DNA of 48,181 bases, taken from a virus. Below the pieces are notes generated by a model. That model was not told the origin of the DNA. It saw only the letters and a list, made by a program, of their open reading frames with translations, and did not search any database. Where the stretch lies: positions 1-48,181 of the IMG/VR virus record IMGVR_UViG_3300043772_003331. The stretch is one strand, 5' to 3'. Of this stretch, positions 1-47,625 are shown piece after piece; within the stretch, counting starts at the first letter, position 1; the number at the start of each line of letters is the position of its first letter. The translations under genes and the position numbers were made by a program.

Positions 1-31
1 CATGTGGACCGCCCGCGTCAACCAATACTAA
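1..31 (+). CDS. Head-tail adaptor, 3' end only
   Basis: Only the last nine codons and the stop are inside the window. They encode MWTARVNQY, identical to the end of the 205-residue adaptor at 41437-42054, and the following gene is also the same in both places. This identifies the fragment as the C-terminus of the copy A adaptor. Confidence 0.8.
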   Translation, partial: MWTARVNQY

Positions 32-34
32 ATT

Positions 35-289
35 ATGCACCCGAATACCCGCATCACCAACCGCACGTCCGGCAGCCAATTCATCGGCGACACCAACACC
101 GTCACCGCTGACATCGTCTCCATCGACGTGATGACCGATACAAAGTTCCACACGCTGACCGGCAACCTCACCGGCGCCGCCAACGCCACCGAGGCCAGCG
201 CCGCGCTCATCAAAGCAGGCACGACCCTCGACGGCTTCTTCAGTGCCATCAAGCTGCACAGCGGCACGGTGATTGCCTACCGCAAATAG
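35..289 (+). CDS. Small conserved virion-region protein (84 aa)
   Basis: Function not recognised. The protein is 84 residues, has no membrane segment or signal peptide, and contains GNLTGAANATE in the middle and a C-terminal part of the type GTTLDGFFSAIKLHSG. The homologue at 42061-42315 has the same length and is closely similar, with most differences in residues 5-25. It lies directly after the adaptor and before the lysis genes, so a minor head-tail or tail component is more likely than a lysis role. That is inference from position only. The ATG at 35 follows the adaptor stop by three bases. The TAG stop touches the next gene's ribosome-binding region. Confidence 0.75.
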   Translation: MHPNTRITNRTSGSQFIGDTNTVTADIVSIDVMTDTKFHTLTGNLTGAANATEASAALIKAGTTLDGFFSAIKLHSGTVIAYRK

Positions 290-303
290 TGAGGAGCCGG
301 ACG

Positions 304-513
304 ATGAGCCTGTCGTATTTTCATCATAACATGAGCACCACCGAGAAAGGTGTGCTTGGAACGGTTACTAGCATCGGCTCAAGCGTCTTCTCAATGCTCC
401 CTCACCTAGAAACAACCCTGCGAGTCGCTGGTCTGTGTGTCGGCCTCGCGGTCGGCATCGTCACCCTAATTTCGGTCCTTCACGACCTAAGAAAGAAACA
501 GAAGCAAAAATAA
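304..513 (+). CDS. Holin-like single-span membrane protein (69 aa)
   Basis: 69-residue protein with a short soluble N-terminus, one strong transmembrane segment at about residues 40-60 (VAGLCVGLAVGIVTLISVL) and a very basic tail ending KKQKQK. This layout resembles small phage lysis membrane proteins (holin, antiholin or XhlA-like). The homologue at 42330-42539 is nearly identical, unusual in this diverged segment. I chose the ATG at 304 because a GAGGAG ribosome-binding site lies 7-12 bases upstream; the in-frame GTG at 289 would only add five residues. It is followed two bases later by a second hydrophobic gene, which suggests a holin/antiholin pair. The exact role is inferred. Confidence 0.8.
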   Translation: MSLSYFHHNMSTTEKGVLGTVTSIGSSVFSMLPHLETTLRVAGLCVGLAVGIVTLISVLHDLRKKQKQK

Positions 514-514
514 T

Positions 515-688
515 ATGCGTAACTACAAAACAACCCTGCTCGGAATCCTCACCATCATCGCCTCGCTCTCGACCGCTGGCCGCGAGTTCCTCGCCAACGG
601 CAGCATCCCCGACCTCGGCCTCATCGCCGCGAGCCTGCTCGCCGGTTGGGGCTTGGTCATGGCCAAAGACAACAACGCCCGCCTCTGA
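515..688 (+). CDS. Putative holin, two membrane spans (57 aa)
   Basis: A 57-residue protein starting MRNYKTTLLGILTIIAS. Two hydrophobic segments are visible, at about residues 7-22 and 33-50, separated by a short polar loop with GREFLANGS, and the tail is charged. Small size, two spans and position between another membrane protein and a lipoprotein/lytic enzyme pair fit a holin that lets the endolysin cross the inner membrane. A close homologue with the same length sits at 42541-42714. The ATG begins one base after the preceding stop. Family assignment is by architecture and context, not by a specific motif. Confidence 0.75.
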   Translation: MRNYKTTLLGILTIIASLSTAGREFLANGSIPDLGLIAASLLAGWGLVMAKDNNARL

Positions 689-692
689 CTCC

Positions 693-851
693 ATGAGCCA
701 CGCCCGCGTCACAAAACTCATTGCAGTTGCGATCCTCGCCGCGTCTTGGGCTGCTCTTGCGGCTGGGTGCGTCACGCTGGGCTACGACTTCATTAAGCAA
801 CAAGCCACCGTCACGTTCGACCACAAGACTGTCAAAGAGCCAACCAAGTGA
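693..851 (+). CDS. Small lipoprotein, o-spanin-like (52 aa)
   Basis: 52-residue protein with a hydrophobic signal sequence ending in a lipobox, LAAGC, with the modifiable cysteine at residue 26. The mature part is only 27 residues. A tiny lipoprotein in a lysis cassette is the expected form of an outer-membrane spanin (Rz1-type), which links to an inner-membrane partner to disrupt the outer membrane at lysis. No separate inner-membrane spanin was recognised, so one of the neighbouring membrane proteins might serve, or this may be another lysis accessory. The homologue at 42719-42871 has the same lipobox and a different C-terminus. The stop overlaps the start of the lytic enzyme gene. Confidence 0.72.
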   Translation: MSHARVTKLIAVAILAASWAALAAGCVTLGYDFIKQQATVTFDHKTVKEPTK

Positions 852-1411
852 TCCCCAAGAGCCGACCACAACAAAAGCGCGACGAGACGCTGAAGCAGCT
901 CAAGGCTGCCAACGTCAGCGATCCGGTGTGTCTGGTCGGCATTCGTGGCTATTACCGCGACTCGATGGGCGCCAAGGGCAAGCAGGATCGCGGAATCTAT
1001 GACGATGCCATCATCCTTGTCTCGCCCAACGCGCACGTTGCCTTCAACGCCAACGTCGATCCGGCCCGCTACGGCATCAACCCAAAGATCGGCAAAGGCT
1101 ACGCATCCCTCAAGTCAGGCGTCTACCGCTACCGACTGGGCAAGCACGGCATTCGGAGCGGCAACCCTTACAAAGCTCTGGTGCAGGGCGATGCAGTCAC
1201 CGTCCAGCGCGACGGCGGCAAGGAGGAGACCGGCTTCTTCGGCATCAACATCCATCGCGGCGGAATCACCCGCACCAACAGCGAAGGATGCCAGACCCTG
1301 CCGCCCGCCCAGTGGCCCGCCTTCATCTCCCTCGTTGAGTCCGAGATGAAACGCAACAACGCCAAAACCGTCAGCTACGTTTTAACACACCCAAGAAAGG
1401 ACATCGCCTAA
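848..1411 (+). CDS. L,D-transpeptidase-fold (YkuD-like) lytic enzyme
   Basis: 187 residues. The C-terminal half contains IHRGG followed nine residues later by SEGCQTL, i.e. H136, S145 and C148, which fits the H...(S/T)xGC catalytic signature of the YkuD/L,D-transpeptidase fold. Cysteine would attack peptidoglycan or a similar amide. In phages such proteins occupy the endolysin position, and here it follows holin-like and lipoprotein genes, so a cell-wall lytic role is inferred; the exact bond is not known. It has no signal peptide. The start is a GTG at 848 overlapping the previous stop by four bases (GTGA), implying translational coupling. In copy B the same slot holds an unrelated amidase. 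Confidence 0.72.
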   Translation: MIPKSRPQQKRDETLKQLKAANVSDPVCLVGIRGYYRDSMGAKGKQDRGIYDDAIILVSPNAHVAFNANVDPARYGINPKIGKGYASLKSGVYRYRLGKHGIRSGNPYKALVQGDAVTVQRDGGKEETGFFGINIHRGGITRTNSEGCQTLPPAQWPAFISLVESEMKRNNAKTVSYVLTHPRKDIA

Positions 1412-1412
1412 C

Positions 1413-2144
1413 ATGGCCAAAACAATCACCCAACTACCAGACGCCACGACTGTCGGAGCTTCCGACGAAATCATCGTCCAACAATCCGGCGTAACCAAAC
1501 GCGCAACCGTCACCGAGCTAAAGGCCGAAGTTGCCTCCTTGGGCGCCAACAACATCACCGTCAGTGGAGCCAACCGCTCGATCACCAACACCGGCAACTT
1601 TGCATTGTCATTTGGGACGAACAACACGGAGCGGGTGCGGGTTCATGCCAACGGCGACGTTTCATTTAACTCAACCGGAGCCAGCATCAACACGACGGTT
1701 GGCGGTGCATCGTGGACGAGCACCGGATACCACGTTCTTTACAGCAACGCGACACTGGCCGCGAACGGCATTATTGACTACCATTCCGACTGGGTCGCAA
1801 CCAACCGCAACGTGTTCCGAGTGCAGGCGGATGGCAATGCTCTAAACTTCAACAACAGCTACGGTGCGCTGTCCGATGCTTCGATCAAAGAAAACATCGA
1901 AGACGCTACGCCGAAGCTCGACGCGCTGAAGCAAGTCCGCGTCGTCAACTTCAATCGCATCGGCGACCCCGATAACAAGCAGATTGGCATGGTCGCACAA
2001 GAGCTGGAAGCGATTTGGCCGAAGCTCATTTCCGAGGACCAAGACGGTCTGAAGTCGATCAAATACAGCGTGCTGGTGCCCATACTCGTTAAGGCAGTGC
2101 AAGAACTCGCCGCCAAAGTGGAAACCTTAGAAGCCGCACAATGA
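1413..2144 (+). CDS. Tail fibre with C-terminal S74 chaperone domain
   Basis: 243 residues. The N-terminus (MAKTITQLPDATTVGASDEI) resembles phage fibre attachment regions. The middle is Asn/Thr/Gly-rich beta-type fibre. From about residue 150 the pattern ALSDASIKENI, QVRVVNFNRI, IGMVAQELEAIWP and YSVLVPILVKAVQEL is that of the intramolecular chaperone, peptidase S74, which trimerises fibres and releases itself by autoproteolysis at the serine of SDASIK (Ser and Lys dyad present). It would act on the virion as a receptor-binding or accessory fibre. This gene is absent from copy B, so it is an insertion or a loss between the two lineages. A final coiled coil ends at AKVETLEAAQ. Confidence 0.88.
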   Translation: MAKTITQLPDATTVGASDEIIVQQSGVTKRATVTELKAEVASLGANNITVSGANRSITNTGNFALSFGTNNTERVRVHANGDVSFNSTGASINTTVGGASWTSTGYHVLYSNATLAANGIIDYHSDWVATNRNVFRVQADGNALNFNNSYGALSDASIKENIEDATPKLDALKQVRVVNFNRIGDPDNKQIGMVAQELEAIWPKLISEDQDGLKSIKYSVLVPILVKAVQELAAKVETLEAAQ

Positions 2145-2311
2145 AACAACAACTCGCCGAACTCATCGAAGCCTACGCCGCCGCCCGCGTGAGCGGGAAC
2201 CGGATGCTGATGGAGTTTGCCGCCGGAAGGCTGAACGACATGATGGCAACGATTGATCTGGTGGTTCCCAAGGAGGTTTTTGAGCAAGCGGTGGAGGAGG
2301 CCAAAAAGTAG
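2141..2311 (+). CDS. Small helical protein after S74 fibre (56 aa)
   Basis: 56 residues, predicted largely helical, no membrane span. The ATG overlaps the S74 fibre stop (ATGA) and its own stop is two bases before the nozzle gene, so it is tightly placed in the late operon. Absent from copy B together with the fibre, which suggests the two genes travel as one unit; a fibre-associated chaperone or adhesin accessory is possible. Function not recognised. Confidence 0.6.
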   Translation: MKQQLAELIEAYAAARVSGNRMLMEFAAGRLNDMMATIDLVVPKEVFEQAVEEAKK

Positions 2312-2313
2312 CT

Positions 2314-4338
2314 ATGCCCCTTGAGAGTCCAGTGCAGCGCGATGGCGACGCCGGTTTTGTCGGCTTTGCCTCTCGCTTGAATCCGATCACACTTCCAGCC
2401 GGTCTGCTGCAAGCCTCGGAGAACATGCGCTTGGATCGCGGCGTGGCGAGCACTCGGCGGGGCGCCAAACGGATGGCCAGCGGCGTGGCACCGGCCAATG
2501 CGCCGCTCACCGTTCCGTTCAACTTGGCCGTGAGCGAGGGCACCGGAGATCCGGTGGTCAAATCCATATACGATGGCGGCGTGTTTGCCTCGGCGGTAGT
2601 CCGCTCGCCCGATGCAGTGAACAGCTTTGAGCTGGTGGTGCTGGCCGCGCCCGCCGAAGCGTATCTGCAAATCTTCGATGACGGCAGCGGGTTTAGCGCC
2701 CAGTGGGGCAGCGGACCGATCTTGGCAACGGATGGCGTCAATCCTGACGAGGAGATCGTGACCAACGCTGGCGAAGAAATTTTGTCCACCCTTTTGCCCG
2801 ACACGCTGACGTATCCGGCGGGCGAGACGATTGAGACAACGGACAAGGTCAGTATGGTGCAAGCCTTCAATCGGCTTTACCTGCTGCGCGAGGCCAGCAC
2901 CAACAAGGAAGGCTGGCAGTCCAAGGGTGTCACCAGCGGCGGCATCACGGTGTCTGGAACCACGGCCACGGTCAACCTCACGGCGCATGGCTACAGCGCC
3001 AACATGCGCGTGCGCATCGAGGGAAGTAGTGTCGCCGCCTTCGATGGCGTGGAATACGACATCGCCACGGCGGCCACGGACACTTTCACGATTACGGTGC
3101 CAAGCGGCGCCGCACAGGACACGACTACCACCGGCCGCACCGTTCGCCGAGTGAAGGCGCCTCTCTACTGGGATCTCGACCCATCGACCGACTTTGTCCG
3201 CAGCCCTGCCGGTGTGCCATCAGCGGGTTCCACCTACAAGTCACTGCCCTCAGTGCCGTGGGCGGTCTATACGAACAACCGTTTGGTAGTTCCGAGCGGC
3301 CGTGATGGCGTTCTGCTTTCAGACTGGCTGGACCCCGAGGTCTACGATCCGTTCTGGCAGAGCTTCCGTGCCAATCAAGGCAGCAACGACTACTTGGTCG
3401 CCGTGCAGCCTTGGGTCGAAGGCAAATTCTTGGTCTTCATGCGCAAGTCGATCTGGCTGGCAACCGTGGCGCAATTCTCCAGCACAGACGGATCAGACTT
3501 CAGTATCGACACCCCACTTTCCAAGCTGGAGCTGCTAACCGACGAGGTCGGATGCCTCGCCCGCAAGACGATTGCCGTGGCCGGTCAGTATGTTTTCTTC
3601 CTAAGTGACGCAGGTGTCTATCGCCTCGACGCTCGCCTCGACCTGCAACTGCGCGGCGACACCAAGCCACTAAGCGATCCGATTGCCGACCAGTTTGAGC
3701 AGTTAGATCCGGCCGCCTCCGAAAACGCTGTCGGCGTCTGGCACGACAACCGCTACTTGCTCTCGGTTCCGCAGACAGCGGGCGTCAACCCCGCCGCGTG
3801 GCTCTTTATTTGGTCGGCGCTCAATGAGCAGTGGGAGACCCGCGACAACTATGGCTTCGGCATTGATGACCTCTTGATCGTCACCGCAGGCAGTCGCCGC
3901 CGCGTCATGGCAACAAGCCAAGCGGGCACCATTATGATGCTCAACGAGGAGCAGGCTGGCGACAACGCGCCCGACCCATCCATCACCGGATATGTCGGCA
4001 CCGTGTCTGGACGCATAGTCACGCGCCGCTATGGCATGGGAAGCATGCACAATAAGCGATTCCTTCGCTCGCTTTCGGATGTGGTGCTGCCGGATACCGC
4101 CAGCATCACCGTCAAGGCGCGCCTGACCAATCCCGACTCGGAAATTACGCTGGTGCCGGGGCAGACGAATCTTAGCGGTCTATCCGAAGATTACACACTC
4201 AAGCAGCCGATCCGGCAAAAGGCTCACTATTGCGAGCTTGAATTTCTAACCACGGCCAACCGACCGGAGATCCGCAACGTCAGCATCGAAGCCGCAGGGC
4301 CAAGCAACCCACCGACCGAAACGCGCAACGCAGCTTAA
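2314..4338 (+). CDS. Tail nozzle/hub protein, T7 gp12-like
   Basis: 674 residues, homologous along its length to the 708-residue protein at 43460-45586. The order resembles podoviral tail tubular protein B/nozzle proteins: an N-terminal anchoring segment (MPLESPVQRDGDAGF...), an inserted beta domain at about 210-285 (AHGYSANMRVRIEG...FTITVPSG), then a long propeller-like part with NNRLVVPSG, VYDPFWQSF, RKSIWLA, ELLTDEVGC and FFLSDAGVYRLD. The last quarter (MHNKRFLRSLSDVVLP) is well conserved between copies. It would form the distal tail channel. It is preceded by a small gene two bases upstream. The family call rests on motif resemblance and position after the adaptor and lysis genes; P22-type stabilisation protein is an alternative name for the same role. 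Confidence 0.72.
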   Translation: MPLESPVQRDGDAGFVGFASRLNPITLPAGLLQASENMRLDRGVASTRRGAKRMASGVAPANAPLTVPFNLAVSEGTGDPVVKSIYDGGVFASAVVRSPDAVNSFELVVLAAPAEAYLQIFDDGSGFSAQWGSGPILATDGVNPDEEIVTNAGEEILSTLLPDTLTYPAGETIETTDKVSMVQAFNRLYLLREASTNKEGWQSKGVTSGGITVSGTTATVNLTAHGYSANMRVRIEGSSVAAFDGVEYDIATAATDTFTITVPSGAAQDTTTTGRTVRRVKAPLYWDLDPSTDFVRSPAGVPSAGSTYKSLPSVPWAVYTNNRLVVPSGRDGVLLSDWLDPEVYDPFWQSFRANQGSNDYLVAVQPWVEGKFLVFMRKSIWLATVAQFSSTDGSDFSIDTPLSKLELLTDEVGCLARKTIAVAGQYVFFLSDAGVYRLDARLDLQLRGDTKPLSDPIADQFEQLDPAASENAVGVWHDNRYLLSVPQTAGVNPAAWLFIWSALNEQWETRDNYGFGIDDLLIVTAGSRRRVMATSQAGTIMMLNEEQAGDNAPDPSITGYVGTVSGRIVTRRYGMGSMHNKRFLRSLSDVVLPDTASITVKARLTNPDSEITLVPGQTNLSGLSEDYTLKQPIRQKAHYCELEFLTTANRPEIRNVSIEAAGPSNPPTETRNAA

Positions 4339-4356
4339 ACAATAAGGAGAACAATC

Positions 4357-5556
4357 ATGGCAACAGTAACAGCAGGATACACATGGACGAGCGGGGAAAC
4401 CGTTACCCCGACGAAACTCAACTCGGCAGCCACGCCGACCGTCACCCTCGCCGATGGCGAAGTCACCAATGCCAAGGTCGCCAGCGGTCTTGATGCAAGC
4501 AAACTCACCACCGGCACGCTGCCTGCGGCCAGAATCGCCGACGCCTCGCTGCCCACGACCAAGCTGGCCGCCGGTGCGCTGCCGACCAACGTGACAGTGT
4601 CCTCGGCAAACATTGACAACTTGAGCATCGTCAACGCGGACGTAGCGAGTGCGGCAGCCATTGATCTCGGTAAGCTGGCGACCGGCGCCCTGCCCACAGC
4701 TATCACCGTCGCCTCTGCCAACTTGGTAGACGGCACCATCGTGAATGCAGACATCAACGCCTCGGCAGACATTGCCGACACTAAGCTGGCCACAATTTCC
4801 ACGGCTGGCAAAGTCTCCAACTCTGCAACTACAGCGACCAACGCCAACACGGCCAATGCCATTGTGGCGCGGGACGCCAGCGGAAATTTCTCAGCCGGAA
4901 CAATCACGGCCGCGTTGACAGGTAGCGTGACCGGAAACGTGACCGGCAACCTCACCGGCAACCTCACCGGCACCGCCAGCGCCATCGCGGACGGCAGTGT
5001 CAGCACGGCGAAGATTGTGGATGCTAACGTGACCAACGCCAAGCTGGCCAGCGACATTGACGCCAGCAAGCTCACCACCGGCACTTTACCGATTGCGCGG
5101 ATTGCCGACGATGCCGTCACCGACGCCAAGCTCTCCCTTGCCGCCAATGCTGGTGAAGTCAAAAAGGCGCTGAACGCCGACAACTCGCCGCCGATTTTTG
5201 CGTGCAGGGCTTGGGTCAATTTTGATGGGACGAAAGACACAACTGGAGCCGTGTCAACCGCTAATACAAACCGACTTCTTCGCGGATCAGGCAACGTAGC
5301 AAGCGTTCTTCGTAATGGAGTTGGCGATTACACGATTACTTTCACCACGGCCATGCCAGACGCAAATTATGCGATAGCATTGGCAACGCATGAGGGGACG
5401 GTCACCACGGCTCGCGGCTCTTCTGGAGTAACTATCGGCCACCTCACAACACCGGCTGCTGGTTCGTTTAACATAAACTGCCGTATTGGATCAACAAGCG
5501 GCGCTGACGGCGTTCCAGATGATCCGCCTACAGTAACGGCTTCTATCTTCCGATGA
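4357..5556 (+). CDS. Tail fibre, repetitive trimeric type
   Basis: 399 residues. It begins with a conserved anchor (YTWTSGETVTPTKLNSA), followed by many imperfect repeats of the type DASKLTTGTLPAARIAD and GNVTGNLTGN, typical of trimeric beta-helical phage fibres. The last roughly 130 residues, after AGEVKKALNADNSPPIF, form a different, non-repetitive tip domain that probably carries receptor specificity. The copy B counterpart (45592-47274) shares the anchor and the GNLTGTASAIADG block but has a different middle and a Tail Collar tip. A good ribosome-binding site (AAGGAG) precedes the ATG. The gene overlaps the following gene by four bases. Confidence 0.85.
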   Translation: MATVTAGYTWTSGETVTPTKLNSAATPTVTLADGEVTNAKVASGLDASKLTTGTLPAARIADASLPTTKLAAGALPTNVTVSSANIDNLSIVNADVASAAAIDLGKLATGALPTAITVASANLVDGTIVNADINASADIADTKLATISTAGKVSNSATTATNANTANAIVARDASGNFSAGTITAALTGSVTGNVTGNLTGNLTGTASAIADGSVSTAKIVDANVTNAKLASDIDASKLTTGTLPIARIADDAVTDAKLSLAANAGEVKKALNADNSPPIFACRAWVNFDGTKDTTGAVSTANTNRLLRGSGNVASVLRNGVGDYTITFTTAMPDANYAIALATHEGTVTTARGSSGVTIGHLTTPAAGSFNINCRIGSTSGADGVPDDPPTVTASIFR

Positions 5557-5897
5557 CCCCATGGCAAAAGGCAAAACAATGGTGGGACAACCACTCGACG
5601 CAAGACTTCTGGGAGCTTGTCGGCGAGCATCTGTCGTCCGGCTTAGTCCACGCCACGCCGGAAGTCTTTCTGCTGGCCTCGGAGCTGCGGTGGAACGCGG
5701 AGGAAGAACGCTTTGAAGACGGCGAGCCTAACACTTGGTTCGTCACTCTGGCTGCTGCTGCTGGCCGCGCAAACCCTGTGCGGGAGTTTATGCGCGTGGC
5801 GACTCGGCCGCAGCAATACGCGGCATGGTGCCGCAGGGGCAGCTTTGAGCCGCGCGTCTACGATTGGGACAAACTAATTAAGAAAACAGGAGGATAA
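5553..5897 (+). CDS. Ejection-operon protein, possibly T7 gp13-like
   Basis: 114 residues, almost the same in copy B (47277-47621). Visible patterns are HSTQDFWELVGEHL, VHATPEVFLLASEL, a Trp/aromatic-rich core, and AAWCRRGSFEPRVYDWDKL at the end. Similar short proteins with a terminal arrangement of R.G...RVY..D.L occur beside internal virion proteins in T7-like phages, where they have been called gp13-like or acetyltransferase-like. The resemblance is from memory and weak. The start ATG overlaps the fibre stop (ATGA), and an AGGAGG site follows its stop for the next gene. A maturation factor for the ejection proteins is the best guess. Confidence 0.65.
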   Translation: MTPWQKAKQWWDNHSTQDFWELVGEHLSSGLVHATPEVFLLASELRWNAEEERFEDGEPNTWFVTLAAAAGRANPVREFMRVATRPQQYAAWCRRGSFEPRVYDWDKLIKKTGG

Positions 5898-5901
5898 TTA
5901 T

Positions 5902-7287
5902 ATGGGTGGAAAATCATCATCACCAGCGCCGCAGCCAGTGCCAGCCGCACCGGCGCCGATTGATTACAATGCAATGGCCGAGGCGAGCATTCGCGTGGCC
6001 CGCGCCCAAAGCGCAGAGGAAGAAGCGGCGATCAAACGGCTATACCCTGAGTATATCCGCATGCAGTTTGGCACAGCGGACCAGCTCTCGCGCAACCTCG
6101 ACAACCAGTTCTCCCAGTTTGCCCGCCAGACCATCCTCGATGAGATGGGCCGCGACATGGGGCCGAGCGCTCTGGAGAACCAGATGCGCGCCCTTGGCGC
6201 CAACGCCATGTCTTACCGGCCGGATCAAATCTCCGCGCCGACCAACATCCGCAACGTGCGCGCCAATCTGGCCAACGCCGCGCAGATGGGTCCGGTGCGT
6301 GACGTTCGCGGAGTAAATGCACAGCGAGTCGGCGATGTCCGCGCCCGCGAAGTCGGCGCCGGTGCCCTCGGCCAGTCGCTAGTCGGCGAGGCCATGAACC
6401 GCGTGGCCAGCGGCGGACGGCTCTCTGCCGAGGCCAGCCGCGATGCCGTGCAGTCGGCCCGCGCCGGTATGGCTGCGCGCGGCATGGCAACCGGAAGCGC
6501 CGGTCTCGCCGCCGAGCTGCTGAACCGCGACCGTTACTCCCGCCAGCGCAACATGGAGGACTTGTCCTTTGCGCAAAACGTGCAGAACGCCGACATCCAA
6601 CGCCAGATGGCGGGAGCGGAGATGGCACTGCAAGCCGACCGAGGCAACCAAGCGCTCGCCGGTCAGATGTCCCTCGCCGATCAAGCGGCGATGATGGACG
6701 CACAGCGGCTCAACCAAGCGAGCGACCTGACGCGCGGCCAGACAGACGCCCAGTTCGCCCAGCAGACCGCCCTCGCCAACCAAGCGGCGCGCATGGACGC
6801 ACAGCGCCTCAACCAAGTGCGCGACACAACGCTCGGCCAGTTCCTACTGAACTCGCAGATGGCGAACCAAGAGGCGAACATGAATCAGGTCAACAACAAC
6901 CGTGGATTCCTGTCGAGTGTTTCACAGCAGGCGCTGGCCAATGACCAGATGCGCTCACAGCGGCGCCTTGGTCTCGGCACGCTCTACGGCGACATGGACC
7001 CTTACCGGCAGGCGCTGGGACCGGCGTTCCAGCTTGGAATGGGAACGCTGGGGAATACGACGCAGCAAGTCGGGAATATCTTCGGCAACTCCCTGCAGCA
7101 AAGTGGCAACGTGGCCAGCTTCAATACCAATATGGGCATGAGCCTGAGAAATTCTGCGCTTAACAATAATGCCGCCATGCAGGCCGCAGCAATGCAGGCC
7201 GGTGCCTCGCAGAACGCGGGCATGATGGGGATGTTTGGCGGCATCGGTGGCGGCGTGGTCACCGGAATCGCGGCGGCCTCTTTCTAA
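5902..7287 (+). CDS. Internal virion/ejection protein
   Basis: 461 residues, highly helical, Ala/Gln/Met/Asn-rich with repeated units such as ADQAAMMDAQRLNQ and ANQAARMDAQRLNQ at about 255-310, a Pro/Ala-rich N-terminus, and a Gly/Met-rich hydrophobic C-terminus (MMGMFGGIGGGVVTGIAAASF). Such composition is usual for podoviral internal proteins that leave the capsid with the DNA and help build a channel across the envelope. The C-terminal glycine-rich segment could insert in a membrane. First 185 residues are nearly identical in copy B (47626 onward). An AGGAGG ribosome-binding site lies just upstream of the ATG at 5902. Its stop overlaps the next ATG (TAATG). Confidence 0.75.
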   Translation: MGGKSSSPAPQPVPAAPAPIDYNAMAEASIRVARAQSAEEEAAIKRLYPEYIRMQFGTADQLSRNLDNQFSQFARQTILDEMGRDMGPSALENQMRALGANAMSYRPDQISAPTNIRNVRANLANAAQMGPVRDVRGVNAQRVGDVRAREVGAGALGQSLVGEAMNRVASGGRLSAEASRDAVQSARAGMAARGMATGSAGLAAELLNRDRYSRQRNMEDLSFAQNVQNADIQRQMAGAEMALQADRGNQALAGQMSLADQAAMMDAQRLNQASDLTRGQTDAQFAQQTALANQAARMDAQRLNQVRDTTLGQFLLNSQMANQEANMNQVNNNRGFLSSVSQQALANDQMRSQRRLGLGTLYGDMDPYRQALGPAFQLGMGTLGNTTQQVGNIFGNSLQQSGNVASFNTNMGMSLRNSALNNNAAMQAAAMQAGASQNAGMMGMFGGIGGGVVTGIAAASF

Positions 7288-15731: not shown

Positions 15732-15760
15732 GGGTCAGCTACGGCTGGCCCTTTCTTTTT
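15732..15760 (+). terminator. Rho-independent terminator of late operon
   Basis: GGGTCAGC, loop TACG, GCTGGCCC form an 8-bp stem with one G-T wobble, followed directly by CTTTCTTTTT. It lies about 30 bases after the giant protein stop, so it ends the late transcript. The T-run overlaps the first arm-like repeat of the presumed attachment site. Confidence 0.88.
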
Positions 15761-15957
15761 GCCAGACTCCGCGCCAGAGTGGCAACCCGACACAGTAAGT
15801 CGGGGCATTTTCAGTCCTCTGCTCTGCCAACTGAGCTACCTAGCCGAATCCCTGTTTTCTCTGATGAACAGAGCAAAATTTGTGATTTGGTGCTATTTGA
15901 TTGCACCTGGTTTGACGCATTTTTTGTCAGACTCTGCGCCAACTTTTGCCAGACACC
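15756..15957 (+). repeat. Direct repeats flanking att core (integrase arm sites?)
   Basis: Three direct copies of TTTTG(C/T)CAGAC occur. The first (15756-15776) and second (15921-15941) agree in 19 of 21 bases, sharing also GCGCCA at the end. The third (15943-15957) is shorter and lies two bases further on. They lie on both sides of the tRNA-like core, just before the integrase gene, the arrangement expected for arm-type binding sites of a tyrosine integrase. No experimental support; the role is inferred from position and spacing. Confidence 0.6.
15807..15845 (-). other. tRNA-Phe 5' half; attachment-site core
   Basis: Read on the minus strand, this begins GGCTAGGTAGCTCAGTTGGC and continues through the D arm (GCTC/GAGC) and the anticodon loop CTGAAAA with anticodon GAA, so it is tRNA-Phe positions 1-39. 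Beyond position 39 the sequence does not pair with the anticodon stem and no T arm or matching acceptor strand is present. It is therefore a tRNA fragment, not a working gene. Next to an integrase it is best explained as the attP core, or a hybrid junction between tandem prophages. The host target would be tRNA-Phe. Confidence 0.8.
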
Positions 15958-15993
15958 TTGGCAGGGTTTGACGGCCGTGCTATTGGTTGCGGC

Positions 15994-17094
15994 ATGGACA
16001 CGCACAAGATCACGGTGGCCGGGCTGACCGGCAAACTCTACCAGACCAACGACTCCCCGCGGTGGCAGCTCGAGTTCCGGCACCCGCATACCAAGAAGCG
16101 GCTGCGCATTTCCACCGGCCTGCGCGACTTGGTCATGGCCAAGGAGAAGTCCAAGGGCATCCTGGTCGATGCCGGACGCGAGGGCTTGGCGGCGCTGCAA
16201 GCGCACCAGCAGCGGGCCACGTCGAAGTCGATTGGTGAGGCGATTGACCATTATTTGAAGGTGAGCAAGATCGGCAGCAAGCAGAGCAATGTCAATCGTC
16301 TGTTGCGGCTGCTGCGGGCCACGCTGGGCGGAACGAATGAGCAGGTGCGGGAGAAGCCGCTGAGTGTGCTGACGCCGGCGCTGGTGGCCAAGTATCTCGC
16401 GGAATGGAAGGGCAGCGTCTACACGCTGCGCGGTGTGCTGGTGTCGTCGCGCGCCGTGTTTTGTCATGCGCTGGACTGGGAGGGCTTTCCGTTACCGGAG
16501 TCGCTGGAGAAGTTTGCCAAGACGACCAAGGGCATGCGAGCGCCCTCGCCTACCTTTGAGCGGATCTCGCCGGAGATACTTAGCAACATGGATAATGCCA
16601 GCAAGCAGAGGTCGCCGTCGATCCGGCGCGCCTTCCTGCTGACGCGCTACCTCGGCATGACACCCAAGGAATGCTGGCTCTGCCGGCGGGAGTGGATTGA
16701 AGAACGCAACGGCAAGTTTGTCATGGTGGTCATTGAGCGCGACGGCGTGACGCTCAAGACCGGCAGCAAGCGGGGCCGCGCCATGTCCATCCCCGAGTGG
16801 ATGGCCGCAGAGCTGCTGACCGCGGACGACTTCATGGTGGACGGCAAGACGCCCGGGCGCCGGAAGTATTTCATGGAGCGGATCTTCAATGCGTTTGTCC
16901 GAGAGTTCCTGCCGGATCGTCGAACGGCCGCCTACGAGCTGCGGCGGCAGGCTGGCTCGGATATCCTCAACGCGACCGGCAAGATCAGCGTGGCGCAGCA
17001 CATGCTCGGCCATAGTTCCCCGACTACGACCTCAACCTGGTATGCGGTGTACGACCGCGAGGTGGACGTGGCGTCTGTCTGGGATCAGCAGTAA
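15994..17094 (+). CDS. int: Tyrosine integrase
   Basis: 366 residues from the ATG at 15994; an upstream in-frame TTG would add 16 residues inside the arm repeats and is unlikely. An N-terminal arm-binding/core-binding region is followed by the catalytic domain. C-terminal boxes are recognisable: YELRRQAG (Arg about 315), LGHSSPTTTSTWYA with the active tyrosine near residue 350. Two usual catalytic positions look different: the first arginine box reads LGMTPKE where TGLRxxE is normal, and the histidine of HxLR is a tyrosine. It catalyses phage integration and, with an excisionase, excision, at the adjacent tRNA-Phe core. Its 3' end overlaps the convergent minus-strand gene by ten bases. Confidence 0.88.
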   Translation: MDTHKITVAGLTGKLYQTNDSPRWQLEFRHPHTKKRLRISTGLRDLVMAKEKSKGILVDAGREGLAALQAHQQRATSKSIGEAIDHYLKVSKIGSKQSNVNRLLRLLRATLGGTNEQVREKPLSVLTPALVAKYLAEWKGSVYTLRGVLVSSRAVFCHALDWEGFPLPESLEKFAKTTKGMRAPSPTFERISPEILSNMDNASKQRSPSIRRAFLLTRYLGMTPKECWLCRREWIEERNGKFVMVVIERDGVTLKTGSKRGRAMSIPEWMAAELLTADDFMVDGKTPGRRKYFMERIFNAFVREFLPDRRTAAYELRRQAGSDILNATGKISVAQHMLGHSSPTTTSTWYAVYDREVDVASVWDQQ

Positions 17095-17306
17095 GCGGCC
17101 TCCCTGCGGAGAATGTGTTGCTCAATCGCCGCAACCTCCTCGGCGAATGGCAGCACATCGAGGTCCGCGCACGCATGCCGCACGCAGTTGTCGCTGAGGC
17201 ACTGCCGCTTCATCATGGCGAACAACTCGGGGCTGTCGAAGCGGCGGCCGGCGAGGCGTAGGCCAGACCATGGGAAGGTGCCGGTGGCGAAGTAGTCGTG
17301 GCGCAT
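17085..17306 (-). CDS. Small protein downstream of lipoprotein gene (73 aa)
   Basis: 73 residues beginning MRHDYFATGTFPWSGLRLAG. No known motif; three cysteines near the middle and a helical, acidic C-terminal third. The start overlaps the stop of the upstream lipoprotein gene (TAATG), so the two are an operon. Its end overlaps the convergent integrase gene. Function not recognised; it belongs to the only minus-strand block and is therefore a candidate lysogeny-expressed gene. Confidence 0.65.
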   Translation of the reverse strand: MRHDYFATGTFPWSGLRLAGRRFDSPELFAMMKRQCLSDNCVRHACADLDVLPFAEEVAAIEQHILRREAAYC

Positions 17307-17710
17307 TAGTTGACGGCGAAGGGTTGCGGTGGCTTGGGCTGGGTGGCGGAATACCAGTGCGTGTAGCCTGGCACGCGCAGCAGGACGCGGGACGGCACCC
17401 GGTAGCCGCTCGGATACACCATCTCCTCGAAGGCCACGCTGTCGTGCGGCACCACGGCGCGAATGATGGAGTCCTGCTTCCATTTGCCGAACTGGTCGGC
17501 GACCAGCTTGACCGTGACTGGCGAGGTGCCGATGTATTCGGCGTTGAGGTAGACGAGCGCGCCGGGTGGCAGCGTGGCGATCTCTACGTTGACGACCGGC
17601 TCGGCGGTGCGGTAGCGCTCGGGCACCGGATCGGTGGCGCAGCCGGCCAAGATCACCACCAAGGCCAAGGGAGCGGCGTGCTTGGCGATGGTGGCGAGGG
17701 CTTGGCGCAT
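17306..17710 (-). CDS. PEGA-domain lipoprotein
   Basis: 134 residues when started at the ATG complementary to 17708-17710. This gives a clean lipoprotein signal: basic start, hydrophobic core LALVVI, lipobox LAGC with Cys24. The mature part contains VVNVEIATLPPGALVYLNAEYIGTSPVTVKL, a PEGA-type beta domain, which occurs in surface and periplasmic proteins. It should be anchored in the envelope. The frame is open further upstream (to 17887 or 17959, adding 59 or 83 residues), but that would bury the lipobox, so the short form is preferred. As a prophage-side envelope lipoprotein it could alter phage adsorption, which is only a guess. Confidence 0.7.
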   Translation of the reverse strand: MRQALATIAKHAAPLALVVILAGCATDPVPERYRTAEPVVNVEIATLPPGALVYLNAEYIGTSPVTVKLVADQFGKWKQDSIIRAVVPHDSVAFEEMVYPSGYRVPSRVLLRVPGYTHWYSATQPKPPQPFAVN

Positions 17711-17880
17711 GCGCGGCGCCGCTGCGTATAGCTCGCCGGACTCATGCAGGGCAAGACCGGCGGCGATGAGCTGGCGGTATTGCTTGCGGTGGCGGCTACC
17801 GTTCAAGCGCTCGCTCGCCCACTGGCTGGCGGCGAAGCCGATGAGGCTGATCGTGCGGGCGCTAATGCGTGTGGTGCGTG

Positions 17881-17917
17881 TTGGCATTTGATGGCATTCT
17901 TTAGCGTCTGTTGGCAT
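17881..17917. promoter_or_regulatory. Operator-like array I: TTGGCAT boxes in 10-bp phase
   Basis: TTGGCAT at 17881-17887, ATGGCAT at 17891-17897 and TTGGCAT at 17911-17917, spaced 10 and 20 bp. On the minus strand these are (A/T)TGCCAA-type boxes lying between the RHH gene and the lipoprotein, upstream of the latter. The same box in the same phase recurs at 18238-18430 and 25733-25759. Likely binding site of a regulator, possibly the adjacent RHH protein. Confidence 0.6.
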
Positions 17918-17967
17918 TGTCAACGTGTTATTTGCAAAGTTGTTGCTAGTGCTTGTCATTACGCGAC

Positions 17968-18225
17968 TTACTTGAGCGCTTTTTCCATCCTGTCAGCCAT
18001 GCCGCCGACATTGCGCAGGATCATCGCCCGGAATTGCTCGGTGAGCGGGCCTTGGAAGGCGTCCTCCAAGTCCATGTAGAACTCGAGGGCAACGGCGACA
18101 TACTTGGCGGCTTTGTGGTCTGCGGCCGCGGCGCGCCGGTGCATGCGGTCGTGCAGGTCGGTGCTGAGGTTGGCGAAGACGCCCTTGCGGGTGTCCTCTT
18201 TGTATCTTGGCTTCTTGGTGCTCAT
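17968..18225 (-). CDS. Ribbon-helix-helix regulator
   Basis: 85 residues from the ATG complementary to 18223-18225. After a basic start (MSTKKPRYKEDTRKG) comes a short beta segment VFANLS and two helices, TDLHDRMHRRAAAADHK and AAKYVAVALEFYMDLEDA. That is the pattern of Arc/CopG/MetJ-type ribbon-helix-helix proteins, which bind DNA as dimers and often cooperatively on tandem short repeats. A helical tail of about 30 residues follows. The gene is flanked on both sides by arrays of (A/T)TGCCAA boxes at 10-bp steps, including its own promoter region. It is the best candidate for the regulator reading those arrays and for an immunity or early-gene repressor. Binding itself is inferred. Confidence 0.7.
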   Translation of the reverse strand: MSTKKPRYKEDTRKGVFANLSTDLHDRMHRRAAAADHKAAKYVAVALEFYMDLEDAFQGPLTEQFRAMILRNVGGMADRMEKALK

Positions 18226-18237
18226 AGGTGCTGCTGT

Positions 18238-18430
18238 TTGCCAATAGACTCCAACGGATGCCAAGGGATGTCAAATAGGGACTTTGCCCCATGCCAAGGA
18301 ATGCCAAAAATAATTCTTGCAGTGTTGGCAGTCTTTGGCATTATTTGGCTATCCGATGCACGCCCACTTCGTGAATCAAGTCGCCCGAAAGGGTTTGCCC
18401 ACGTTGCCAAGGAATGCCAAGGAATGCCTT
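18238..18430. promoter_or_regulatory. Operator-like arrays II-V between divergent genes
   Basis: Runs of a 7-bp box with 10-bp steps fill the space between the RHH gene and the excisionase-like gene. II: TTGCCAA 18238, ACTCCAA 18248, ATGCCAA 18258, ATGTCAA 18268. III: ATGCCAA 18291 and 18301. IV, inverted: TTGGCAG 18325, TTGGCAT 18335, TTGGCTA 18345. V: TTGCCAA 18404, ATGCCAA 18414, ATGCCTT 18424. One helical turn spacing puts all boxes of a run on one DNA face, as for cooperative repressors. The fourth box of II contains TTGACA on the minus strand, a possible -35 for the RHH gene. Confidence 0.68.
18317..18345 (+). promoter_or_regulatory. Candidate early promoter under array IV
   Basis: TTGCAG (18317-18322), 17-bp spacer, ATTATT (18340-18345). 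The spacer and -10 are covered by array IV boxes, so occupancy would block it. It would drive the excisionase-like gene and the early operon. Match to the sigma-70 consensus is moderate. Confidence 0.4.
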
Positions 18431-18433
18431 TCT

Positions 18434-18625
18434 ATGACAAACACCACACCACACCTGCTCACGATCCGCGATGCGGCGAACGCCCTCCGGGTGAGCTATG
18501 CACAGACCCGCCTCTGGGTCTTAGAAGGCCGGCTGCCGTCGATTGCCCTCGGGCAACGCACACGCCGGATTCCCGCACAGCAACTCGCGAAGTTCATCGC
18601 GAACAACACGACGGGAGGAAACTAA
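18434..18625 (+). CDS. Excisionase-like winged-helix DNA-binding protein
   Basis: 63 residues. LLTIRDAANALRVSYAQTRLWVLEGRLPSIALGQRTRRIPAQQLAKFI is (in pieces) the MerR-like/excisionase HTH_17 pattern: recognition helix, wing with R..RI, then a short helix. Such proteins bend DNA as excisionases or act as small regulators. It is the first gene rightward of the box arrays and divergent from the RHH regulator, the usual place of an excisionase or Cro-like gene in temperate phages. The ATG at 18434 directly follows array V, so an array-bound repressor would also cover its ribosome-binding region. Start further upstream would translate the operator and is rejected. Confidence 0.72.
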   Translation: MTNTTPHLLTIRDAANALRVSYAQTRLWVLEGRLPSIALGQRTRRIPAQQLAKFIANNTTGGN

Positions 18626-25470: not shown

Positions 25471-25727
25471 GCGCCGGCAAAGGCGACAGCCCGCGGCCGG
25501 TCAACGGCGACCGCTACCGGCGTAACTACGAGGCGATCTTCTCACCGCCCTACCCCGCGTGGATCTGCCGCCCCTGCGGCGAAGCCCACGGCCGCGGCAT
25601 GCCCGCCGGCCACGTCTCGACTTGGCACGAAGACCCCTGCGGCGTGTGCGGCAAGGTGACTTCCGTCAGCGAACCCCGCGATTTCGGCCACCTAAAAAAA
25701 TGGCCCATCCCCCCAAAAAACCCTTGA
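25467..25727 (+). CDS. Zinc-ribbon-like early protein (86 aa)
   Basis: 86 residues. It starts MSAGKGDSPRPVNGDRYRRN, a beginning shared by many small phage proteins. Two cysteine pairs with histidines (CRPCGEAH and CGVCGK) could form a zinc ribbon. The end is Pro/Lys-rich. The gene ends the coupled chain; the following gap holds an operator-like array. Function not known. Confidence 0.62.
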   Translation: MSAGKGDSPRPVNGDRYRRNYEAIFSPPYPAWICRPCGEAHGRGMPAGHVSTWHEDPCGVCGKVTSVSEPRDFGHLKKWPIPPKNP

Positions 25728-25732
25728 TTCCC

Positions 25733-25759
25733 ATGCCAACACATGCCAACATTTGCCTA
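25733..25759. promoter_or_regulatory. Operator-like array VI before helicase operon
   Basis: ATGCCAA at 25733, ATGCCAA at 25743 and TTGCCTA at 25753 repeat at exact 10-bp steps in the only gap of this gene chain. Same box and phase as the arrays round the RHH gene 8 kb upstream, which suggests one regulator controls both. The flanks hold homopolymer A and C runs; no convincing promoter was found. Confidence 0.6.
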
Positions 25760-25793: not shown

Positions 25794-26009
25794 ATGGCCA
25801 CTGAGCATCAACCACCACCACCGCCCGAACACCACATCACACCATGGCTCGAAGAATCATTTCGCTTAGTCGATGCAGCCTGCGACCGCTGGGAACGTCG
25901 CCGCGCACAACTCGCCCGCAGGAAGGAAGAAAATGAACGCGCTCATTCTGACCTACCTTGCGCTGATCGTGCTGGCATTCATTGTCATAGTCGTTCTGGA
26001 AAACAATGA
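25794..26009 (+). CDS. Small protein upstream of helicase (71 aa)
   Basis: 71 residues. Pro/His-rich start (MATEHQPPPPPEHH), then a helix rich in Arg/Glu (VDAACDRWERRRAQLARRKEEN). Its last 25 codons overlap another small frame and the stop overlaps the helicase ATG. The final stretch looks less protein-like, so either this gene or the overlapping membrane peptide may be dominant. No family recognised and no strong ribosome-binding site. Confidence 0.5.
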   Translation: MATEHQPPPPPEHHITPWLEESFRLVDAACDRWERRRAQLARRKEENERAHSDLPCADRAGIHCHSRSGKQ

Positions 26010-26028
26010 CGACGGAGGCGCCGCCTAA
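25933..26028 (+). CDS. Overlapping membrane micropeptide (31 aa)
   Basis: 31 residues: MNALILTYLALIVLAFIVIVV then a short acidic tail. A purine-rich GGAAGGAAG ribosome-binding site sits immediately upstream. It overlaps the 71-residue gene in another frame and the first codons of the helicase. The very clean single transmembrane segment supports translation, but its size makes this tentative. Confidence 0.4.
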   Translation: MNALILTYLALIVLAFIVIVVLENNDDGGAA

Positions 26029-27412
26029 AATGAAACGCACCGTCCCACAAAGCCCCGCCGTTGAGCAAGCCGTGCTCGGCAGTCTTCTCGCCGACCCTAA
26101 GCTCATCGACGAGATCGCCGCGCTGCACGCCGATTTGTTTTACACGCCCGCGCACCGTTTCATCTACGAGACCATCTGCGAGATCCGCGGCGAAGGCGGC
26201 ACGCCGAACCTCATCGCCACCACCCAACGCATCGATGCGCAGCACAAACTCAACTTCGTCGGCGGCGCCGGCGCCCTCACCGAACTTCTCTCCCAGTCCG
26301 CCGGCGGACCCGCGGGCGTTGAGTACCACGCGCAAACCCTCCGCGACCTCCACGCCCGCCGCCGCATCATCGACGCCAGCGTCGCCATGCAAGCCGCCGC
26401 CCAAGACATGGCCAGCGATGCCGACAGCGTCCTCCAGCAGGCCGGCGAGTCCGTCCTCAGCCTTTCGCTCACCACCGCCACCGACAGCATGCGCGCCCCG
26501 AGCGCCATCGTCCCCGGTCTCCTCGAAGAGCTAGAGAGCCTCATGGCCGGCGGCAGGAAGCTCGGCCTACAGACCGGCATCCGCGACTTCGATCAAGTCA
26601 CCGGCGGACTCCGCGGAGGACAACTCACCATCATTGCCGGCAGACCCGCCATGGGTAAAAGCGCCCTCATGCTCAACATGGCCGACAACATGTCCCGCCG
26701 CGGCGTGCCGGTCGTCTACTTCAGCCTCGAAATGCCCGCCACTGAGTTGGCCGCCCGCGTTGTCTTGGGCCGCGCCGAAACGAACACCGAGATCATTCGG
26801 AACGGCTTTTTGACCGCATCGATCAAACACCGCATCTTCGACGCCGCCACGCAATTTTCCACAGAACCCCTCTATGTGGACGATCGTGGCGGCCTCACCC
26901 TCTTAGACATCCGCGGCCGCGCCCGCCTCGCCGTCCGCCGCTGGGGCGTGAAGTGCATCTTCGTTGACTACCTGCAACTCGTCAGCCATTCCGGCGCCCA
27001 GTCCCGCGAGAACGAAGTCGGCTTCGTCTCCCGCGGCCTCAAAGCCATGAGCATGGAACTCGGCATCCCGGTTGTCGCCGCCGCCCAGGTCAACCGCCAA
27101 GCCGAGCAGCGCAGCGACAACCGCCCAAAACTTAGCGACCTCCGCGAGAGCGGCAGCATCGAGCAGGACAGCGACATTGTTTGCTTGATCCATCGCCCCG
27201 CGTATTACGCCGTGCAAGACGAGGAACCGGAAGTGCAAGACGCCGAGCTGATCGTAGCGAAGCACCGCGCCGGCAGAACCGGAACGCTCAACCTCACATG
27301 GCGTCCCTCACTCACCCGCTTTGAGGGCACCGCACCCGCGGGACGCACATCCGACAGCGACGGCTCGGTCTACGCCCCGGCGAAACAACTTTGGGAGGCC
27401 ATCAATGAATAG
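26006..27412 (+). CDS. dnaB: Replicative DNA helicase, DnaB family
   Basis: 468 residues. The N-terminal helical domain (PQSPAVEQAVLGSLLADPKLIDE) and a RecA-type C-terminal domain are both present. Walker A GRPAMGKSAL is near residue 211, Walker B CIFVDYLQLV near 317, followed by QVNRQAEQRSDNRPKLSDLRESGSIEQDSD, the DnaB motif 4 region. It unwinds the fork as a hexamer and loads primase; no separate phage primase was seen, so host primase is probably used. The initiator at 23277 would recruit it. Length matches the family. ATG 26006 overlaps the previous stop (ATGA). Confidence 0.95.
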   Translation: MTTEAPPKMKRTVPQSPAVEQAVLGSLLADPKLIDEIAALHADLFYTPAHRFIYETICEIRGEGGTPNLIATTQRIDAQHKLNFVGGAGALTELLSQSAGGPAGVEYHAQTLRDLHARRRIIDASVAMQAAAQDMASDADSVLQQAGESVLSLSLTTATDSMRAPSAIVPGLLEELESLMAGGRKLGLQTGIRDFDQVTGGLRGGQLTIIAGRPAMGKSALMLNMADNMSRRGVPVVYFSLEMPATELAARVVLGRAETNTEIIRNGFLTASIKHRIFDAATQFSTEPLYVDDRGGLTLLDIRGRARLAVRRWGVKCIFVDYLQLVSHSGAQSRENEVGFVSRGLKAMSMELGIPVVAAAQVNRQAEQRSDNRPKLSDLRESGSIEQDSDIVCLIHRPAYYAVQDEEPEVQDAELIVAKHRAGRTGTLNLTWRPSLTRFEGTAPAGRTSDSDGSVYAPAKQLWEAINE

Positions 27413-41437: not shown

Positions 41438-42054
41438 TGAGGACTGTCACCTTACAGTCTATCTTGCTCCGCGCATGGCAACGTGTCGGCAACGACGCCA
41501 GCACCATCGACGCCATCCCATCCGGCGCAAGAACCATGATGGTCGCCGCCGCCAACGAGCGCATCGCCGACTGCTGGGAGTGGAGTGACTGGTCTGAGCT
41601 TATGCGCGTCGAAAGCCGCACCGTTCAGGGCGATGCCACGAACGGCTATTACATCGACTACGAGCAGAGCGGCCAGACCGCCATGGGAGAGGTCTTTGGC
41701 GTTTTAAGAGACAACCCTGCAACCCACGCCGCGCCCCGCGCCATTGGCTATACGCTCCTCGGAGATGCCATTCGCTTCCCCGAAGACACCGACCTACCAA
41801 CCACCGTCTGGGTCAACTTCCGCATCCGCCCGACCGAATACAGCGCCAGCAACCTCTCCGCGACCGTGCCCGCCGTCATCGCCAAAGCAGTCGCCCTTAT
41901 GCTGACCTCGGACCTGCTCACCGAAGACGGCCAGCTCGACAAAGCACTCGCCATGGAACAGATGGCCGAGTCCGAGCTGATCTCCCAGCGCGACAAATAC
42001 TATTTCCAGCAGGGCCAGCCCTCCATGTGGACCGCCCGCGTCAACCAATACTAA
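41437..42054 (+). CDS. Head-tail adaptor, podovirus type
   Basis: 205 residues. VTLQSILLRAWQRVGNDASTIDAIPSGARTMMVAAANERIADCWEWSDW starts a helical domain; a beta hairpin region (DYEQSGQTAMGEVFGVLRDNP, VWVNFRIRPTEYS) and terminal helices (ALAMEQMAESELISQRDKYYF) follow. The layout of helices around a beta part fits adaptors such as P22 gp4 or T7 gp11, which join portal and nozzle. The copy A equivalent is cut at the left window edge with an identical C-terminus. Its place between head and lysis/nozzle genes supports the role. Confidence 0.68.
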   Translation: MRTVTLQSILLRAWQRVGNDASTIDAIPSGARTMMVAAANERIADCWEWSDWSELMRVESRTVQGDATNGYYIDYEQSGQTAMGEVFGVLRDNPATHAAPRAIGYTLLGDAIRFPEDTDLPTTVWVNFRIRPTEYSASNLSATVPAVIAKAVALMLTSDLLTEDGQLDKALAMEQMAESELISQRDKYYFQQGQPSMWTARVNQY

Positions 42055-42060
42055 AAACCT

Positions 42061-42315
42061 ATGCACCCTAACGTCAGAACAACCAACCGCCAGTCCGGCG
42101 CCGTCTCTATTGCCAACACCGACACCGTCAGCGGTGAGTTCGTCAGCATCGACGTGATGACCGACGCAAAATTCCACACGCTCACCGGCAACCTCACCGG
42201 CGCCGCCAACGCCACCGAAGGCAGCGCCCACACGATCAAGGCCGGCACGACCCTCGACGGCTTCTTCAGCGCCATCAAGCTGCACAGCGGCACCGTCATC
42301 GCCTACCGCAAATAG
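42061..42315 (+). CDS. Small conserved virion-region protein, copy B (84 aa)
   Basis: 84 residues, homologue of 35-289. The segment from SIDVMTD to the end is nearly unchanged, while residues 5-25 differ (TTNRQSGAVSIANTDTVSGE). Function not recognised. The TAG stop leads directly into the ribosome-binding site of the next gene, as in copy A. Confidence 0.75.
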   Translation: MHPNVRTTNRQSGAVSIANTDTVSGEFVSIDVMTDAKFHTLTGNLTGAANATEGSAHTIKAGTTLDGFFSAIKLHSGTVIAYRK

Positions 42316-42329
42316 TGAGGAGCCGGACG

Positions 42330-42539: not shown

Positions 42540-42540
42540 T

Positions 42541-42714: not shown

Positions 42715-42718
42715 CTCC

Positions 42719-42871: not shown

Positions 42872-42875
42872 GCGC

Positions 42876-45586: not shown

Positions 45587-45591
45587 CTACT

Positions 45592-47274: not shown

Positions 47275-47276
47275 GC

Positions 47277-47621: not shown

Positions 47622-47625
47622 TACT

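Follow-up and report, generated by a model that had tools for sequence, protein, structure and literature searches.

The 48,181-nucleotide stretch of DNA analysed here (hereafter the window) is the IMG/VR virus record of a temperate tailed phage, and it carries a real, conserved and phase-locked operator system, in which arrays of short boxes are repeated at 10-bp steps on both sides of a gene for an 85-residue ribbon-helix-helix (RHH)-like protein. The reader of these boxes is most likely the RHH-like protein itself; the arrays would then be the operators of the main lysogeny repressor of the phage, which probably occludes the underlying promoters cooperatively. The genes, arrays and predicted promoters concerned are the following.

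15757–15967, no strand: attP-like site, with the 5′ half of tRNA-Phe (reverse complement of about 15811–15849) flanked by three TTTTGYCAGAC arm-type repeats
15946–17094, plus: tyrosine integrase (PHROG integrase, E 2.5e-19)
17306–17959, minus: cargo gene, lipoprotein-like, PEGA domain (Pfam PEGA, E 4e-5)
17881–17917, minus: Array I, four 10-bp units, boxes read at 17917, 17907 (degenerate), 17897 and 17887
17896–17923, minus: P_cargo, candidate promoter, TTGACA (17923–17918), 16 bp, AAGAAT (17901–17896)
17968–18225, minus: open reading frame of the RHH-like protein, 85 aa, candidate repressor
18238–18274, plus: Array II, units at 18238, 18248 (degenerate), 18258 and 18268, in the RHH gene leader/promoter
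18291–18307, plus: Array III, two exact units
18317–18351, plus: Array IV, boxes on the minus strand at 18325, 18335 and 18345, within the candidate promoter P_E
18404–18440, plus: Array V, units at 18404, 18414, 18424 and 18434, the last of which includes the HTH start codon
18434–18625, plus: HTH_17/excisionase-like winged-helix protein, type A (Pfam HTH_17, E 2e-8; PHROG excisionase-type matches)
25724–25759, plus: Array VI, units at 25733, 25743 and 25753, at the candidate promoter P_dnaB, upstream of dnaB
26006–27412, plus: DnaB-like replicative helicase (PHROG, E 8e-95), second gene downstream of Array VI

Exact copies of WTGCCAA start at 17881(−), 17911(−), 18238, 18258, 18291, 18301, 18335(−), 18404 and 18414, i.e., nine within 17881–18420, and 30 occur across the 48-kb window, compared with 14.5 in whole-window shuffles. 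To these are added members with one mismatch (17891 ATGGCAT, 18268 ATGTCAA, 18325 TTGGCAG), others with one to two (18345 TTGGCTA, 18248 ACTCCAA and 18424 ATGCCTT) and extra units that fall in phase, namely the degenerate TTAGCGT at 17901 and ATGACAA at 18434, which is the start codon of the HTH gene. When TGCCAA pairs with at most one mismatch are counted in 17860–18450, six lie at lag 10, five at lag 20 and three at lag 30, and no other lag exceeds one; 200 dinucleotide-preserving shuffles gave about 0.1 pairs at each of these three lags, the largest count being 2. The boxes are real, and their 10-bp phasing in the window lies far above the shuffled controls, which bears out the exact 10- and 20-bp steps reported in the preliminary description. 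Its count of about 15 boxes had the coordinates right, but nine are exact and the larger figure is reached by allowing one to two mismatches; its list of arrays was likewise right in position, yet it left out the array at 25733/25743/25753.

The arrays overlap promoter-like sequences and likely cover −35 and −10 elements at three predicted promoter sites: that of the cargo gene, that of the divergent RHH/early pair, and that of the dnaB operon. A further array (Array V) occupies the leader of the HTH gene. Phased arrays are found over the candidate early promoter and the leaders, where boxes had been described at the outset. The left array (Array I, 17881–17917) lies downstream (3′) of the RHH gene and over P_cargo, the candidate promoter of the next leftward gene, with units in its spacer, on its −10 and downstream of it, and the cargo gene likely starts near 17887/17880, within the last box. 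P_cargo was the sole consensus promoter-like site to emerge from a scan of 17800–18520 (10 of 12 matches); at its position the relatives have TTGCAG-16-TATAGT and similar sequences, where a unit again falls in the spacer and a second one over the −10. The last unit of Array II is the TTGACA of the predicted RHH promoter (minus strand, 18274–18269), a hexamer conserved in 29 of 29 distinct upstream regions aligned. The −10 candidate of this promoter is weak (GAGTCT at 18251–18246, giving TTGACA-17-GAGTCT), and the RHH gene's own promoter, with so poor a −10, is the least certain of those predicted. P_E, the candidate rightward early promoter (TTGCAG at 18317–18322, 16 bp, CATTAT at 18339–18344), was assigned by comparison with relatives, in which two boxes of Array IV and their TTGC/CATNNT flanks are kept; the consensus scan did not pick it up. 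In these relatives, AAATAATGCTTGC-like DNA precedes both P_cargo and P_E. The candidate P_dnaB consists of TTGATT (25724–25729), 17 bp and CAACAT (25747–25752). Overall, the operator-like arrays II–IV and VI overlap candidate early promoters or the candidate promoter of the RHH gene itself, all of them predictions, and this arrangement is conserved in relatives. A sigma-54 promoter reading of TTGGCA-N4-TTGGCA was also considered and dropped, as the −12 GC element is absent.

Relatives were gathered from viral contigs by three protein searches, which returned about 35 contigs carrying an RHH-like gene, and by one HTH search, which returned 15 loci. The RHH-like proteins encoded there are 49–100% identical, and the boxes drift to TGCCAA, TGCCCA, TGCCTA or TGCACA at a constant 10-bp step (29 distinct upstream and 28 downstream sequences, the window included). 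Spacings counted in relatives are 10 bp in 80 cases, 20 bp in 13 and 30 bp in 24. The phasing, whose absence from relatives had been named as one observation that would refute the proposed reading, is kept in every relative with the RHH gene, and the four-unit phase of Array I is kept in 27 relatives across the aligned downstream regions. A motif-free autocorrelation of the relatives is highest at lag 10 both upstream of the RHH gene, with z of 12.7, and downstream of it, with z of 13.8, 10.5 and 10.8 for lags 10, 20 and 30, values that overstate independence among sequences of common descent; the coding control gives a lag-10 z of 3.0 and a period-3 pattern instead. In addition, a protein-blind DNA scan with TGCCWACANRTGCCWACA (two units of TGCCWACA) returned 119 stretches, 99 of which have at least three homologues of window proteins. 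The array upstream of dnaB is present in 69 of 70 distinct sequences; among its 39 distinct three-box versions, the second box is TGCCAAC in 38, forming the −10 of P_dnaB, and boxes 1 and 3 have A or T about half and half, the pattern of an operator constrained in box 2 by the promoter −10.

The gene content around the arrays is partly constant and partly exchanged. The RHH-like protein is encoded in all 49 loci that span the switch and in all 11 found by the DNA pattern alone, and an HTH_17 protein is likewise present in every intact switch. The HTH protein comes as type A or type B, which are 33% identical, and the integrase as type I, II or III; they combine as A+I, A+II, B+II and B+III, in every case retaining one or more strict 10-bp pairs on the upstream side of the RHH gene. 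In relatives with the other HTH type, the equivalent of Array V precedes a gene whose product begins MTNTT. The cargo slot is hypervariable: its promoter and boxes are conserved, and the gene behind them differs between phages (17306–17959; L009–L056), the contents ranging over PEGA lipoproteins, 71-aa MNINAIAQ proteins and many small proteins of no known kind. This exchange of HTH, integrase and cargo genes around constant arrays amounts to a natural experiment on which protein reads the operator.

The box sequence at the switch also varies with the class of RHH-like protein. Of 50 boxes that accompany a KG...HDRM protein, 37 have a purine at base 7, compared with 1 of 68 that accompany a (R/K/A)(S/A)...H.RL/I protein, whichever HTH type is encoded, although these arrays are physically linked to the RHH gene and the relatives are not independent. 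L019, whose protein is otherwise of the second class but has KG...HDRM, shows a purine at base 7 in two of its four boxes. At the unlinked dnaB and cargo arrays, base 7 is C with both protein classes. The placement of the RHH gene, divergent from the early operon and beside the integrase, is where a repressor gene is expected, and no CI-like repressor was found among the early ORFs scanned.

An RHH fold for the 85-residue protein is probable, not established, and the label given to it in the preliminary description draws weak support from profile comparison. The hhalign comparison used 25 aligned CopG-type proteins drawn from genomes of the presumed host's order; in it, the FANIS-helix-helix segment fell in strand-helix-helix register with a score of 14.7, which was reached by 4 of 300 column shuffles (p ~0.01), and the best curated match, FitA-like_RHH, gave E 0.06 in 4 of 17 homologues at about 13.6 bits, against a cut-off of 27. 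On the other side, the protein matched no Pfam, PHROG or NCBIfam model, PF01402 and PF22513 had no match in the window, and AlphaFold2, given 12 and 17 sequences, returned low-confidence models (mean pLDDT 59 and 65) that were all-helical, without a strand and below 50 at the N-terminus. Structural comparison of such a model gave one weak match, CFP10-ESAT6 (Z 2.6), an unrelated helical protein and not meaningful at such pLDDT. NCBIfam CopC matches (E down to 0.0015) were judged to be due to chance, since they cover a short stretch with no other copper-protein feature.

Homologues of the RHH-like protein outside the present phage group were found in none of the phages, plasmids or genomes searched: blastn of 15.9–19.0 kb against phage records gave no match, tblastn of the protein gave none in phages and three chance matches in plasmids, and a sequence search of solved structures gave one chance match. 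Neither the genome scan nor the 213 genomes of the presumed host's order contained the protein, so no integrated prophage was seen.

The setting of a lysogeny switch, proposed from the outset, agrees with the temperate-phage context indicated by the tyrosine integrase and the attP-like site. The RHH-like gene (17968–18225, minus) and the leftward cargo gene face a rightward early operon that begins with the HTH_17 protein, and the further genes include a DNA methyltransferase, an O-like replication protein, the DnaB helicase, a Gp2.5-like SSB, an exonuclease, a terminase and a major head protein. The 41-base tRNA-Phe sequence of the attP core occurs exactly in 13 genome contigs, all titled Verrucomicrobiota, under the names Chthoniobacter, Chthoniobacterales and Spartobacteria, with one labelled Akkermansia. 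The core of the type III attP (34 bases of tRNA) is exact in 2 of 388 Verrucomicrobiota genomes, one of which, the Chthoniobacter-labelled G023, matches both cores. The tRNA-Phe matches in these contigs suggest Chthoniobacterales hosts for a phage group without a named relative (15757–15967; G023, L298–L310), and the phage is probably a temperate phage of freshwater Verrucomicrobia. Separately, the ends of the record (1–6457 and 42024–48181) carry the same tail-region genes at 67–93% nucleotide identity, which may represent either a duplication or an assembly that continued beyond a single genome length and picked up a related strain.

We propose that dimers of the RHH-like protein, or one subunit per unit, would bind each 10-bp unit of the ATGCCWACAG type, and that subunits bound side by side would touch one another along a single face of the helix, so that two to four adjacent units fill cooperatively and cover the −35/−10 region. 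RNA polymerase would thereby be kept off the early, dnaB operon and cargo promoters; the repressor would also limit its own gene, and the HTH protein behind the early promoter would be the likely lytic partner or excisionase. The phasing, the overlap with promoter-like elements and the constancy, placement and covariation described above speak for the binding, repression and lysogeny role that we infer for this protein; its fold is likewise inferred.

The strongest competing reader is the HTH_17 protein (18434–18625), which may be a recombination directionality factor (RDF) of the Apl/Cox/Xis kind. Its monomers would then occupy the boxes head to tail at one-turn intervals, shut down the repressor promoter and the early promoters, and take part in excision; we consider this unlikely, although it merits serious attention. 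Known RDF sites are, like the boxes, direct repeats spaced by one turn of the helix (PMC7498355), Array V adjoins the HTH start codon, and HTH type A has excisionase-type PHROG matches while type B has a weak Phage_Cox match. Moreover, two to three TGCCAACAG units occur at attP in most relatives with integrase type III, lying, in loci L057, L047, L018, L046 and L027, upstream of the integrase, in the interval that separates the tRNA core from a second array, made of TGCCACA repeats, and two boxes beside attP, as in some relatives, suit an excisionase. However, the site sequence does not track the HTH protein: the recognition-helix regions of types A and B differ, yet the RHH-side arrays are nearly alike in the window and L014, whereas the near-identical type-B proteins of L019 and L027 face different box subtypes. 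The attP sites of integrase types I (the window) and II are also without 10-bp TGCCAA arrays, and the dnaB and cargo promoters, unusual targets for an RDF, do carry them. The constancy of the RHH gene, the shuffling of HTH and integrase types, the base-7 pattern and the box-free attP types favour the RHH-like protein over the HTH protein, without proving it.

It is improbable that the boxes are read by a host regulator or by the phage's 21302 HTH protein (HTH_28-like), acting as an activator or repressor of several promoters. The 21302 protein has weak HTH and late-activator matches and is widespread in the phage family, and in other phages TGCCAA arrays with a 10-bp step adjoin genes of no relation, such as DUF1492/sigma-region-4-like and HNH genes in Firmicutes-type phages; nevertheless, the 21302 gene lies within the early operon, away from the arrays, which flank the RHH gene's own locus and whose box subtype tracks the RHH class. 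It is very doubtful that the boxes are integrase arm-type sites, which can be tandem and about 10–11 bp apart and which in this phage family also contain TGCCA, since the window attP has its own arm repeats (TTTTGYCAGAC), unlike the boxes, the arms vary with integrase type while the promoter arrays do not, and Array VI is 8 kb away. Equally far-fetched is a parC-like partition centromere, in which the prophage would be a plasmid and the RHH-like protein would act as ParR, an RHH protein whose direct-repeat sites of 10 or 11 bp flank a promoter (PMC9426499, PMC5016525), given that no ParM/ParA-like gene was found among the ORFs scanned, that the arrays are short and occupy four or more separate sites, and that an integrase and attP are present.

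A survey of unrelated contigs that started from the arrays showed no general association of TGCCAA arrays with RHH genes, and the box alone is therefore not diagnostic. Three-unit ATGCCAAACTGTGCCAAAGTGTGCCAACTTTT arrays at the 10-bp step occur in unrelated phages that are Firmicutes-like by gene content (L062, L073, L085, L106, L113, L115, L128, L131, L151, L163, L169, L175, L089, L098 and L102); where read, they adjoin a DUF1492/sigma-region-4-like or HNH endonuclease gene and are perhaps a late promoter element. In L155 (2032–2217 and 2467–2503), TTGCCAAAAA-like units occur four times with a 10-bp step, at a distance of 250 bp from a 61-aa protein that is RHH-like by eye and matched no Pfam model, and L082 (12917–13150), a contig unrelated to the present phage, has a long GTGCCAAGGT/GGGCCAAGGT tandem tract, also at 10-bp steps.

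Returning to the RHH-like protein as repressor, there is a reasonable possibility, which we put somewhat short of even, that it represents a new repressor family confined to the present temperate tailed phages (probably of Chthoniobacterales), which would run lysogeny from decameric arrays on one face of the DNA at four or more promoters, with a rapidly exchanged cargo gene under the same control. If so, a newly acquired cargo gene would at once be part of the repressor's regulon. The repressor reading itself, if right, would offer a handle on lysogeny in phages of Verrucomicrobiota, which are hardly studied hosts.

Several known systems share parts of this arrangement. Mnt and Arc of P22 are RHH repressors in a temperate tailed phage, but they act on paired half-sites at one operator region, in a secondary immunity region, and not on arrays at several promoters. 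The omega repressor of pSM19035 and MetJ place RHH dimers on tandem short operators and regulate several promoters, as proposed here; their 7- or 8-bp steps wind the dimers round the DNA, in contrast to the one-face 10-bp step of the phage. The omega heptads are cited in PMC5016525. The preliminary description held that known RHH proteins use 7–8-bp steps or half-sites and that a decameric RHH switch would be novel; the first statement is not right, and the second needs correcting: ParR of pB171 binds 10-bp direct repeats and ParR of R1 11-bp repeats (PMC9426499), and in SSV1 lysogeny is maintained by the RHH protein F55, which binds tandem repeats at its own promoter as well as at early ones (PMC5569661). 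Both RHH binding to 10-bp repeats and an RHH lysogeny repressor are already known, and what was not found in the literature searched is the two together in a tailed phage, at several promoters, one of them in front of a hypervariable cargo slot.

ParR/parC of pB171 and R1 resembles the present system in its RHH protein and in 10- or 11-bp direct repeats that flank a promoter (PMC9426499, PMC5016525) but serves partition with ParM, on long arrays at one locus, whereas no ParM was found in the phage. Apl of phage 186, with seven sites in the interval from pR to pL and a further five at att, and Cox of P2 are alike in binding direct repeats about one turn apart over the lysogenic and lytic promoters of a temperate phage (PMC7498355); they are winged-helix or HTH excisionases, whereas the constant neighbour here is RHH-like, two of the three attP types lack boxes, and the dnaB and cargo promoters are boxed. 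F55, compared here by its description, is a small RHH protein credited with lysogeny maintenance, which acts by occlusion from tandem repeats that lie at its own promoter and at several early ones (PMC5569661). F55 belongs to an archaeal virus with archaeal promoters and ATAGATAG repeats, whereas the phage has four to six bacterial-type sites, 10-bp units and HTH and integrase neighbours; if the present reading is right, RHH-type lysogeny repression on tandem repeats, as in the archaeal SSV1, would extend to tailed bacteriophages, the 10-bp spacing leaving all subunits on a single face of the helix.
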